Origin: an uncultured Clostridia bacterium
GTDB taxonomy: Bacteria; Bacillota; Clostridia; Oscillospirales; Ruminococcaceae
Length of the DNA stretch: 64,000 bases
Reading direction: 5' to 3'
Assembly (NCBI GenBank): GCA_947627875.1
Contig: CANQXS010000003.1
Coordinates: forward strand, 82,227 to 146,226
Shown: positions 59,286 through 63,702 of the stretch, piece after piece
Layout: every line of letters begins with the position of its first letter
Position numbering within the stretch: the stretch's first letter is position 1
Program-made: the position numbers and the translations under genes
The notes under the pieces: model-generated
What the model was told of the DNA's origin: nothing
The model's input: the letters and a program-made list of their open reading frames with translations, nothing else
Databases searched by the model: none

Positions 59286-60338
59286 ATGGAGCTTAAGCTG
59301 ACGAACGAAACCGCGCTTTACCGTCAGATACGGGAGGGCAGCATAAAGCCCTGCTATTTCTTCTACGGAAAGGATATAGCAACGCTTGAGAGCGTCGTTA
59401 AAAGGCTTGTTGCGAAGCTTGTCCCTCGCGACGCGCGCGACCTCAACTACCACTTTTTCCCTGCCGACGAGATGAGCATTTCGGAGCTTGCCGACGTCTG
59501 CGCTTCGCTGCCGATGTTTTCCGACAGGGTAGTGGCGGCGGTGAACGACTTCAATGCCGATACCGCGAAAGCTGCGGATATGAAGCAGATGAAAAGCATC
59601 ATCGGCGACATTGACCCCGAGACCACGACGGTAATATTCTATGCGACCGGCGACGACCTTTGCAAGGGCAAAAAGAAGCTCACGAAAGCAAACCTCGATT
59701 TTGCGGCATATATCGTCGATAAGGGCGGAGTTGCGGTTGAATTTGCGTATAAAAAGCCGCGCGAGCTCGTCAAATATATCAGCGCGAGGGTGGAAAAGGG
59801 CGGAGCCTCGATAACCGACGCCGCCGCGCTCAGCCTTGCGCAGGTCTGCCTCTGCAACGTTCTTATGATTAACAACGAGATAGACAAGCTCTGCGCCTAC
59901 CGCGAGGGAGAATGCATAAACGAGGAGGACGTTGCGCTGATGGCGGCGGGTCAGATCGACGCCGACGCCTACAAGCTCGCCAAGGCGATAGCTCTCAGAA
60001 ACAGCGCGGATTCCTTTGCGCTGCTCTCCGAGCTCTTTAACCGCCAGCAGGAGCCCGTTCCGCTGCTCGGGGTAATAGGTTCTGCTTTTCTTGACCTTTA
60101 CCGCGCAAAGCTTGCGCTTATGAGCGGACGGGGCGAGCGCGACATCTCCGGCGACTTTGACTACCGCAACCGAGGCTTTGCCGTAACGAACGCGCTTCGC
60201 GACTGCTCGGGAATGAGCGTTGGCAGGCTGCGGAGCTGTCTTCGGGTCATATCAGACTGCGACGCCGACCTCAAGTCGAAGCGCACCGACGACAGGGTGC
60301 TCCTTGAGGTCGCGATAACAAGGCTTCTGAACGAATGA
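59286..60338 (+). CDS. holA: DNA polymerase III delta subunit
   Basis: IREGSIKPCYFFYGKDIATLESVVKRL...RREQ-type C-terminal clamp-loader region; adjacent to comEC-like gene. Confidence 0.92.
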   Translation: MELKLTNETALYRQIREGSIKPCYFFYGKDIATLESVVKRLVAKLVPRDARDLNYHFFPADEMSISELADVCASLPMFSDRVVAAVNDFNADTAKAADMKQMKSIIGDIDPETTTVIFYATGDDLCKGKKKLTKANLDFAAYIVDKGGVAVEFAYKKPRELVKYISARVEKGGASITDAAALSLAQVCLCNVLMINNEIDKLCAYREGECINEEDVALMAAGQIDADAYKLAKAIALRNSADSFALLSELFNRQQEPVPLLGVIGSAFLDLYRAKLALMSGRGERDISGDFDYRNRGFAVTNALRDCSGMSVGRLRSCLRVISDCDADLKSKRTDDRVLLEVAITRLLNE

Positions 60339-60374
60339 TTGCGCCCGCGCGCCACAGTTTGTGAGGCGAAGCCC

Positions 60375-60509
60375 GCCCCGCTTCGCGGGGCAGCCGCCTT
60401 CGGCGGCTCGCCAGCGCCGCCCCTTCGGGCGGCGCCGGCGGGGCTTCGCCCCCGCAGACGTTTAAGTCTGCGCAAAAGCCGCTTCGGAGCGCAAAACCAC
60501 CCGCGCGGG
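60375..60509. repeat. Cluster of consecutive GC-rich hairpins between holA and rnmV-like gene
   Basis: GCCCCGcttCGCGGGGC-like 60375-60391; AGCCGCCttcGGCGGCT 60392-60408; GCGCCGCCCcttcGGGCGGCGC 60414-60435; GGGGCttcGCCCC 60440-60452; GCAGACgtttaaGTCTGC 60454-60471; CCCGCGCGGG 60500-60509. Confidence 0.85.
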
Positions 60510-60532
60510 CGGGAGCACAAAAGAGGGATACG

Positions 60533-61111
60533 ATGATACATATTGACGGAGCGATAGTCGTCGAGGGGAAATACGACAAAATCAAGCTTTCGCGGGTCGT
60601 GGACTGCCCGATAATCACGACCGGCGGCTTCGGCGTGTTCAAAAGCGAGGAGACAAAGGCACTGCTGCGCTGGTATGCCCAAAACGGCGGCATAACCGTT
60701 TTGACCGACAGCGATTCCGCAGGGTTTAAGATCAGGGGATACATAAAGGGCATCGTCCCGAAGGGGACTGTCCGCAACGCCTATATTCCCGACGTTTTCG
60801 GCAAAGAGAGCCGCAAGGAAAAGCCCTCGGCAGAAGGAAAGCTCGGCGTCGAGGGTATAGATACAGCGCTTTTGAGGGAATGTCTCGAAAGGGCGGGCGT
60901 CTGCGGGAAAATCTCGGAAAATAAGCGCAGGATCGAGCGGCAGGACCTTTATGAGGACGGGCTTTTCGGTCGGGAGGATTCCTCGAAAAAGCGCGCCGCG
61001 CTTCTGAAGCTTTTGGGGCTTCCCGAAAGGCTTTCGACGTCGGGGCTTATCGACGTCCTCAACTGCGCTTATACCTACGAAGCCTATAAAGCGGCCGTCT
61101 CAAAGCTTTAA
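60533..61111 (+). CDS. rnmV: Ribonuclease M5-like TOPRIM protein
   Basis: IHIDGAIVVEGKYDKIKLSRVVDCPIITTGGFGVFKSEETKALLRWYAQNGGITVLTDSDSAGFKIRGYIKGI. Confidence 0.88.
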   Translation: MIHIDGAIVVEGKYDKIKLSRVVDCPIITTGGFGVFKSEETKALLRWYAQNGGITVLTDSDSAGFKIRGYIKGIVPKGTVRNAYIPDVFGKESRKEKPSAEGKLGVEGIDTALLRECLERAGVCGKISENKRRIERQDLYEDGLFGREDSSKKRAALLKLLGLPERLSTSGLIDVLNCAYTYEAYKAAVSKL

Positions 61112-61129: not shown

Positions 61130-62548
61130 ATGGTATTTTCGTCGGTGGAATTTCTGTATTTTTATCTTCCCGCCGTTATCGCGCTCTATTGCGTATGCCC
61201 GAGAAGGTTCAGAAACGCCCTGCTCTTCGCGACGGGGCTTGTGTTCTATGCCTTCGGCGAGCCGATATATGTATTTGTGCTGCTCCTTTCCTGCCTGATA
61301 GACTACTTCGCGGGCATAATAATGGCGAAATACTCCGAACGCCCGAAAATCAGAAAGGTTTGCCTGATAATTTCGCTCGCCCTCAATCTCGGGCTTCTCG
61401 GAGTATTCAAATACACCCCCTTTATAATAAGGAATATAAACGCCGTTTTCGGGACGTCGTTTTCCACGGCGCTCCCGCTGCCGATAGGGATATCCTTCTT
61501 TACGTTTCAGAGCATGTCCTACGCCATTGACCTCTACCGCGGAGAGATCGGAGTTCAGCGCAGCTTTATCGACTTCTCAGCCTATGTTACGATGTTCCCC
61601 CAGATAGTCGCGGGACCTATAGTGAGATATAAAGACGTAGAATCCGAGCTTGCCGACAGGCGGGTTACGGTAATAGGCTTCTCCGACGGCGTGAGCAGGT
61701 TCGTCAGGGGGCTTGCGAAAAAGGTACTTCTTGCAAATAACATCGGAGCGCTCTGGGAAGAGGTCAAGGCCGCCGACTATTCCGCGCTTCCGGCCCTTAC
61801 CGCCTGGCTTGGGATCGTCGCTTTCACGCTTCAGATATACTTCGACTTCTCGGGCTATTCCGATATGGCGATAGGTCTCGGAAAGATGCTCGGCTTCAGC
61901 TTCCCCGAAAACTTCGACCACCCCTACGTTTCAAAGAGCGTCCGCGAATTCTGGCGGAGATGGCATATAACCCTCGGGCAGTGGTTCAAAAACTATGTGT
62001 ATATCCCCCTCTGCGGCAGCAGGGAGGGAATTGCTAAGACAGTCCGCAACCTCGCTGTCGTCTGGCTCCTGACCGGTCTTTGGCACGGCGCAAGCTGGAA
62101 TTTCGTCCTATGGGGAGTATGGTTCGGCGCCCTTATCATCGCCGAAAGGCTGTTTTTGGGGAAGCTCCTCGAAAAGCTGCCGGGATTTTTCGGCTGGCTT
62201 TATACGATGCTCGCGGTCGTACTCGGCTGGGTCCTGTTCGACACCGAGAGCATCGCCTCGGCGTTCGGCTTTATCGGGGCGATGTTCGGCGCGGGAGGCT
62301 CCTTCAGCGACGTTCATTCCTTCTGGCTCCTCTGCGAATATTCCCCGATAATTTCGCTCTGCATATTCTTTGCCTCGCAGGCACCGGGGAACTTCCGCGC
62401 AAGGCTTGAGAGCCGCTTTGAAGGTCTCGGGCTCAGAGCCGACGTTTTCAGGCTCGCCGAACCGCTGATAACCCTTGTTTTCCTCGCGGCGTCGACCGCT
62501 TATCTCGTAAATCAGAGCTACAATCCGTTTCTTTACTTCAACTTTTAA
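61130..62548 (+). CDS. MBOAT family O-acyltransferase (AlgI/DltB-like)
   Basis: MVFSSVEFLYFYLPAVIALY; VREFWRRWHITLGQWFKNYVYIPLCGSREG; LWHGASWNFVLWG. Confidence 0.95.
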   Translation: MVFSSVEFLYFYLPAVIALYCVCPRRFRNALLFATGLVFYAFGEPIYVFVLLLSCLIDYFAGIIMAKYSERPKIRKVCLIISLALNLGLLGVFKYTPFIIRNINAVFGTSFSTALPLPIGISFFTFQSMSYAIDLYRGEIGVQRSFIDFSAYVTMFPQIVAGPIVRYKDVESELADRRVTVIGFSDGVSRFVRGLAKKVLLANNIGALWEEVKAADYSALPALTAWLGIVAFTLQIYFDFSGYSDMAIGLGKMLGFSFPENFDHPYVSKSVREFWRRWHITLGQWFKNYVYIPLCGSREGIAKTVRNLAVVWLLTGLWHGASWNFVLWGVWFGALIIAERLFLGKLLEKLPGFFGWLYTMLAVVLGWVLFDTESIASAFGFIGAMFGAGGSFSDVHSFWLLCEYSPIISLCIFFASQAPGNFRARLESRFEGLGLRADVFRLAEPLITLVFLAASTAYLVNQSYNPFLYFNF

Positions 62549-62565
62549 AGGAGGGCAGACCGCTT

Positions 62566-63702
62566 ATGAAGCTTAAAAAGCTGATATCAGCCGTAAACAT
62601 CGCGCTGTTCTTCGCGTTTACGGTCATTCTCGCTCTGGCTACGCTTATTCTGCCGAAGTCCGGCTTCTCAGAGCTCGAGAACCGCTATCTCGCCGAGAGC
62701 CCCAAGCTCAGCGCGCGGTCGTGGTTTTCTAAGGAATACCCGACGGACCTCGGCGAATATTTGCAGGAGCACTTTGCCCTCCGCACGAATTGGATATCGC
62801 TTCGTACCTCGCTCGAGCGCCTTTTGGGTCACGACGAGGTCAACGGGATATACTTTGCCGACGGCAGATTCTTCGAGGCTTCCGAGCCGATAGACTACTC
62901 CCGAATCGACCGCTCGGTCTCGGCGATAAATTCCTTTGCCGAAGGGCTCGGCGGCAGGCTCAGCGTTATGATAGTCCCGACCTCGTCTCAGATATATATC
63001 GACCGCCTGCCCGACTACTCGCCCGACCCCGGTCAGCGCAGAATGATAAACTATGTTTACTCTGCGCTTTCGGAGGATATCCGCACTGTAGACGTATACG
63101 ACCGCCTCTACCGTGCCCGCGAGGACTATATCTATTACCGCACCGACCACCATTGGACCACGGCGGGAGCCTATATCGCCTACTGCGAATTTGCGAGGGC
63201 GATAGGCTATGACCCCGTAGCGCTCGACCGCATCGACATCGAGCACGCGCGCCACGATTTTTTGGGCTCATATTATTCAAAGGTCATCTCTGACGAAGCC
63301 GAGCCCGACACCGTCGATATATATTCCTCCGACGGCGCCGAGGTCACTTCCGTAAAGATAACCGCCCCTGACGGCAGCGTTTCGGAGCGCGATTCGGTCT
63401 ACTTCCGCGAATATCTCGATAAGAAAGACAAATATCTTACTTTCCTCGGCGAAAACGTTCCGCTTGTCGAGATCGAGTCCGACGCCGGCGGCGGCTCTCT
63501 CCTTATTATAAAGGACTCATACGCCAACTGCTTCGCGCCTTTTCTTACCAAGCACTTCTCAAAAGTAACGCTCGTCGACCTCAGATATATGATGAGCCTC
63601 TCGGATTACGTCGACGTCTCGGAATATGACCGCATTCTGATACTTTACAACGCCTCAACCTTTGCCGAAGACGCTAATATCGCGAAGCTTTCGGCAAAAT
63701 AG
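62566..63702 (+). CDS. DHHW family (AlgJ/AlgX-like) protein
   Basis: YIYYRTDHHWTTAGAYIAYCEFA; signal anchor; downstream of MBOAT gene. Confidence 0.93.
   Translation: MKLKKLISAVNIALFFAFTVILALATLILPKSGFSELENRYLAESPKLSARSWFSKEYPTDLGEYLQEHFALRTNWISLRTSLERLLGHDEVNGIYFADGRFFEASEPIDYSRIDRSVSAINSFAEGLGGRLSVMIVPTSSQIYIDRLPDYSPDPGQRRMINYVYSALSEDIRTVDVYDRLYRAREDYIYYRTDHHWTTAGAYIAYCEFARAIGYDPVALDRIDIEHARHDFLGSYYSKVISDEAEPDTVDIYSSDGAEVTSVKITAPDGSVSERDSVYFREYLDKKDKYLTFLGENVPLVEIESDAGGGSLLIIKDSYANCFAPFLTKHFSKVTLVDLRYMMSLSDYVDVSEYDRILILYNASTFAEDANIAKLSAK

Follow-up and report, generated by a model that had tools for sequence, protein, structure and literature searches.

REP, BIME and REPIN sequences, with RAYT, are short palindromic extragenic repeats present many times per genome beside unrelated genes, and by the definition used here the palindrome of a REP has on one side a tag, GTAG or CGTC, that stays unpaired (PMC3733652). 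Bacterial MITEs such as NEMIS and Correia are non-coding, have inverted ends, lie scattered between genes and can fold when transcribed. The bacterial stem-loop sequence families are likewise repeats whose family members fold alike, and two thirds lie between genes (PMC2267715); in organelles the double-hairpin elements, the sponge RHE with its conserved stems (PMC2800124) and the algal LIMP, whose stems are built of pentamers (PMC4524435), invade intergenic DNA with no known mobility protein. Integron attC sites are recognised as folded single-stranded DNA, with structure conserved above sequence (PMC11641012). Bacterial repeat families are normally detected by sequence similarity; the cloverleaf family described below shares traits with each of these systems, and is conserved in fold while being nearly free in sequence.

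The window, by which we mean the whole 64,000-nt stretch of DNA analysed, is part of contig C3 in a genome of 2.57 Mb and 50 contigs (G000), and contains a 194-nt gap (60339-60532) that separates holA from an RNase M5-like gene (rnmV). The upstream gene (59286-60338, + strand), encoding DNA polymerase III delta, matched TIGR01128 at 204 bits, above the cut-off, as well as Pfam PF06144 and PF21694. The downstream RNase M5-like protein (60533-61111, + strand) matched TIGR00334 at 77 bits, below the cut-off of 110.65, together with Pfam DUF4093 (PF13331). Among the named entries of the collection that was searched, the closest to it belonged to the uncultured Clostridia MAG Lapin-011 bin22 of the 'Lapin' (rabbit) series (CANRLU010000017.1, 93% identity). 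Further 3', the interval 61130-63702 encodes an MBOAT acyltransferase and a protein of DHHW/AlgX-like type, which may be partners in polysaccharide acetylation.

The first-pass annotation had described the gap as a row of separate hairpins, and while every stem that it listed is present where it was placed, the arrangement is a different one: three perfect or near-perfect hairpins stand inside a 10-bp outer stem (GGCGAAGCCC/GGGCTTCGCC), forming an 86-nt cloverleaf core at 60365-60450. This core, to which no strand is assigned, is the dispersed repeat unit, as judged by pattern search, DNA folding and the fall of flank similarity between paralogues outside it. The 5' half of the outer stem (60365-60374, + strand) contains the heptamer GCGAAGC and the 3' half is GGGCTTCGCC (60441-60450, + strand), both being supported by sequence and by compensated variants at one orthologous site; the supposed independent stem at 60440-60452 is better understood as this 3' half, paired with 60365-60374. 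Arm 1 (GCCCCGC-TTC-GCGGGGC, 60375-60391, + strand) and arm 2 (AGCCGCC-TTC-GGCGGCT, 60392-60408, + strand) are followed by arm 3 (CGCCAGCGCCGCCC-CTTC-GGGCGGCGCCGGCG, with one internal A/C mismatch), which includes the stem annotated at 60414-60435 but is longer, spanning 32 nt (60409-60440, + strand). The TTC and CTTC loops described earlier are borne out by the sequence.

Two further helices lie outside the core. An extra hairpin on its 3' side (CGCAGAC-GTTTAA-GTCTGCG, 60453-60472, + strand), annotated before as 60454-60471 and real here, is kept in part in the congener G010 and lost from the congener G004, and stands outside the family. A larger helix, in which 60342-60350 (+ strand) pairs with 60503-60511 (+ strand), closes the gap and encloses the whole insertion; it is retained in G010 through a compensated change and, by inspection, in G004, and the flank-pairing comparison revealed no such helix across the family as a whole.

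The gap folded at -123.7 kcal/mol as compared with -95.0 ± 4.4 in dinucleotide shuffles (z = -6.5), none of 200 shuffles matching it. As DNA, the 86-nt core gave z scores of -7.6 for the + strand and -8.0 for the - strand, and the same cloverleaf was predicted on both strands of the single-stranded core. Strong G+C-rich hairpins in intergenic DNA might represent an intrinsic or bidirectional transcription terminator, a reading that we consider highly improbable: the + strand has no U-tract, as had already been remarked, terminator-like matches occur at the rate of chance (the sole match here is on the - strand), and the copy sits inside an operon-like gene pair. At another locus, L007, a hairpin with a T-run lies ahead of the element and is retained where the element is absent. 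Rfam gave no match above the gathering threshold around the site or at eight other loci.

A DNA search of the genome with the holA-rnmV block recovered only four weak partial relatives, each within a cloverleaf having different arms. A strict pattern built on the outer stem, GGCGAAGCC-N(50-80)-GGCTTCGCC, matched 20 copies in G000 against none for the reversed pattern that served as control, and relaxing the outer stem, which added C11:52431 (GGA/TCC) and C12:5550 (GCA/TGC), brought the total to about 22 true copies, adjoining unrelated genes. Given that the fold is conserved and the sequence nearly free, ordinary repeat searches detect little of what such a fold-based pattern finds. The genome-wide search, which the first-pass annotation had proposed, thus placed the block in a repeat family, with up to 205 copies in a congener, an outcome that the annotation itself had named as speaking against a specific leader.

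Across the genus (31 genomes) we counted between 0 and 205 strict copies per genome, three congeners carrying 74-205. These counts use outer-stem sequence patterns and therefore miss copies with other outer stems, of which two kinds were seen in passing. When genomes were sampled at the levels of order, family and phylum, true cloverleafs of this type were seen in one family only, occurring in the genus itself, in the genus g16 (G097, G166) and as one copy in G275; pattern matches from other families, among those inspected or folded, were ordinary sequence lacking a tight three-arm fold. Viral carriers were considered and rejected, none of six IMG/VR pattern matches being a tight cloverleaf. 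On a rough longest-ORF reading, copies fall in tandem, divergent and convergent gaps; because many spurious small reading frames run across G+C-rich palindromes, we claim no orientation statistics.

At matching positions in G004 (L178:2662-2734) and G010 (L185:2663-2743) we observed a tight three-hairpin cloverleaf with the outer stems CGAACCCCG/CGGGGTTCG and GGCGACCCCG/CGGGGTCGCC, respectively, which indicates that the three-hairpin architecture is not bound to a single outer box. Separately, a 109-nt element in G023, from another family of the order (L050:1359-1467), encloses three hairpins, of which two have GAA/TCC loops, between inverted ends of 22 bp (GCCCCCCTTGTTAAAGGGGGGA).

The holA-rnmV gap is occupied by a cloverleaf in three close species, where it measures 194 nt (G000), 199 nt (G010) and 198 nt (G004). 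In 14 of 15 other congeners examined the gap has no cloverleaf and measures -4 to 54 nt, and in the remaining one (G006) it holds about 210 nt of other, non-cloverleaf sequence; as far as sampled, the insertion is restricted to the lineage of G000, G010 and G004. The 54-nt gap of G009 (L024) contains GGGGGCTTCGCC, possibly the 3'-box relic of a lost cloverleaf. RNase M5 family members mature structured 5S rRNA precursors, and the element lies close to a gene whose product matches the RNase M5 model TIGR00334. The first-pass annotation had raised, as a speculation, the possibility of a structured leader acted upon by the adjacent RNase. The distribution leads us to reject this proposal, which we hold to be extremely improbable: the gene is kept and the gap lacks the element in all 15 of the other congeners, and about 21 other copies in G000 adjoin other genes. 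The arms and stem lengths, moreover, differ among the three species that have the element.

The architecture was assessed in 54 strict copies (162 arms) from G000, G010 and G004. All 54 consist of the outer stem and exactly three hairpins, and 148 of the 162 arms are distinct in sequence. The inner pairs comprise 1281 G-C, 140 A-T and 16 G-T (16/1437, or 1.1%, G-T), and 26 of 2900 stem bases are unpaired. Orthologous sites were identified by flank matching. Of the 68 arm pairs that changed at shared sites, 57 are doubly compensated Watson-Crick changes and 9 are one-sided, in a comparison that takes only predicted pairs and so under-counts mismatches; in 44 of 123 arm comparisons the arm had been replaced or shifted and was not alignable. 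The outer stem varies in the same way, its central triplets at the L014 site being GAA/TTC, AAA/TTT and GGA/TCC across the three species, and this covariation is direct evidence of pairing between the two distant boxes.

The holA-rnmV site itself displays both kinds of change. When G000 is compared with G010, the only difference in arms 1 and 2 is the loop (TTC in G000, TGC in G010), and both strands of the outer half of arm 3 have been exchanged for other, still paired sequence; relative to G000, all three arms of G004 are different, arm 1 being built on a different stem. The parallel change from TTC to TGC in two arms prompted us to consider concerted loop evolution within an element, which was rejected in that loops of the same element are if anything less alike than expected by chance.

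These data bear on whether RNA or DNA is the conserved object. Were the cloverleaf to work at the transcript level between co-transcribed genes, by stabilising the mRNA, offering a processing site or causing partial attenuation, selection would act on the RNA fold. Co-directional genes flank the copy here and at many other G000 sites, the gap folds very strongly as RNA, an RNA role is often assumed for the stem-loop repeats that other bacteria carry (PMC2267715), and covariation could also result if selection for folding of the RNA were very strong. Wobble pairs, however, make up only 1.1% of the inner pairs, whereas GTAG-type REPs are often G-T paired, which has been read as a sign of RNA (PMC3733652); several copies appear in divergent gaps, the cloverleaf is strand-symmetric, and other congeners have the same operon without it. 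We consider an RNA element unlikely, although a stabilising or processing effect on the holA-rnmV mRNA is possible as a side effect. DNA is instead favoured over RNA by the paucity of G-T pairs, the small number of one-sided changes, the symmetry between strands and the triloops of DNA type described below.

Triloops account for 133 of the 162 loops, and 109 of these (82%) are GNA or its complement TNC, as compared with 43 of 259 (17%) among other triloop palindromes in the window; a C-G pair closes 154 of the 162 loops. With each orthologous site represented once (26 independent elements), GNA/TNC makes up 54 of 66 triloops. DNA mini-hairpins that have a GNA loop and G-C closing pairs are extraordinarily stable, the melting temperature of GCGAAGC being ~78 °C (PMC4686876). 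The outer 5' box GGCGAAGCC is centred on this heptamer and, like most of the arms on one of their two strands, has the composition of such C-GNA-G mini-hairpins (a GNA loop with at least two G-C closing pairs), the stability being as published (PMC4686876).

The order of the two boxes is polar: the reversed arrangement GGCTTCGCC...GGCGAAGCC is missing from G000, and the genus as a whole has about 594 forward matches against 3 reversed ones, which are chance matches. The near-absence of the opposite order means that GCGNAGC starts both strands.

Could such palindromes be functionless by-products, created, perfected and remodelled by template switching and scattered by occasional duplication? 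Replication template switching does yield perfect stems and multi-base compensatory changes (PMC8794818), arms are frequently replaced at orthologous sites, and no function could be linked to the positions of the copies. Loop inversion, which template switching would be expected to produce, showed no clear excess (5 of 53 changed loops at orthologous sites). Alone, such a process does not account for an arm number of exactly three in all 54 copies, for an outer box whose polarity is near-absolute or for a conserved outer sequence beside free arms, and we regard it as a doubtful account of the family. The fixed arm number and the polar outer box, unexplained by template switching, suggest either that a protein recognises the element or that some step of its copying depends on the fold.

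The limits of the unit were apparent in the high-copy congener G017, in which the cores are 90-97% alike and flank identity is mostly at the random baseline (~0.59), though sometimes shared on one side. Alike cores in different surroundings indicate that the core acts as a unit, sometimes within larger composite repeats. The same genome has mosaic repeats in which cloverleafs are joined to two recurrent flanks (L201, L202, L204, L207; L201, L203, L206), the first being a CCTACTTG...TTTACTG...TTAGAGG...CAAAG-GCAG block and the second a GCCCCCTCCC-GGGAGGGGG block. Terminal inverted repeats, as expected of a MITE, are present as the 9-11 bp outer stem at the unit ends. A recurring GCGCCTTGGTGCGG flank raised the possibility that terminal repeats extend past the outer stem, and this was rejected, as pairing between the two flanks of a copy is no better than between flanks taken from separate copies. 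At L007 in G004, the one spanning unoccupied site obtained, the sequence differs over a longer stretch.

The first-pass annotation had also suggested a dispersed REP-like repeat cluster. The repeat is indeed dispersed, as many scattered extragenic palindromes on a rough reading of gene context, but it does not belong to REP in the strict sense, having neither a GTAG/CGTC tag nor an association with RAYT. The ends of the copies (108 in all) show only an enrichment of G at -1/-2 and a weak one of C at -9/-10. A profile search for PF01797 (Y1_Tnp, IS200/IS605-type) gave no match in G000, G004, G009 or G042, and in the genus the number of matches bore no relation to the number of strict copies (10 matches against 22 copies in G003, 2 against 205 in G018, 0 against 74 in G042 and 0 against 26 in G009), so that a RAYT-driven REP was rejected.

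The explanation that we favour, as somewhat more probable than not, is that the gap holds one copy of a dispersed non-coding repeat of ~80-95 bp that is kept as folded DNA and spreads passively, and that the copy is a young insertion in an operon-like gene pair, not specifically connected with the RNase gene. That every copy has the same four-armed shape, with the letters of its arms nearly free, suggests that the folded DNA itself is copied or kept. The repeat would be a four-way cloverleaf in which a conserved outer stem gives each strand a 5'-terminal GCGNAGC box and the three hairpins vary in sequence while retaining pairing and GNA/TNC triloops. The conserved object would be folded single-stranded or cruciform DNA and not RNA, spreading as a non-autonomous unit bounded by the ends of the outer stem. 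Polymerase template switching from one half of a palindrome to the other, a process that homogenises the arms of palindromes (PMC8794818; PMC8604942), may be what keeps its arms perfect, and this would probably be aided by selection for the fold. Both the function and the mobility of the repeat are what we infer from these patterns.

More tentatively, and with considerably less confidence, the repeat may be passive mobile DNA read by its shape, a host or element enzyme engaging the four-way junction and the 5' d(GCGNAGC) mini-hairpin of the cloverleaf when this is folded as a single strand. Were this so, the sequences of the arms would be free while fold, arm number and loop type were enforced, and the family would be a lead toward a possible shape-reading enzyme. 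The many orthologous sites in close species are a natural system for how bacterial palindromes are made, corrected and replaced, and could be used to weigh template switching against selection.

Set against the systems described at the outset, the cloverleaf differs from REP, BIME and REPIN sequences in being a closed four-helix unit of ~80-95 bp, in lacking the GTAG/CGTC tag, in having almost no G-T pairs and no RAYT in the genome, and in that its arm sequences are not conserved within a genome. In contrast to MITEs, its ends consist of the 9-11 bp outer stem only and its interior is set by fold rather than sequence; no target duplication was found at the one unoccupied site, which was not a clean one, and no parent transposase in the search for PF01797. 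The stem-loop families were clustered by sequence similarity (PMC2267715), whereas the arms of the cloverleaf are largely dissimilar between copies, and the organelle elements as a rule have one or two hairpins rather than a three-arm cloverleaf with a polar outer box. The core has perfect arms where attC is a bulged hairpin, it does not lie in a cassette array, and the GTTRRRY/RYYYAAC boxes were not found in it, the 86 nt containing no GTT or AAC. A partial literature search, which is no proof of absence, found no published account of a bacterial MITE or cloverleaf-forming repeat that has these traits. Taken with these likenesses and differences, the element is probably a dispersed repeat of REP- or MITE-like kind, though not a REP, that acts as folded DNA.
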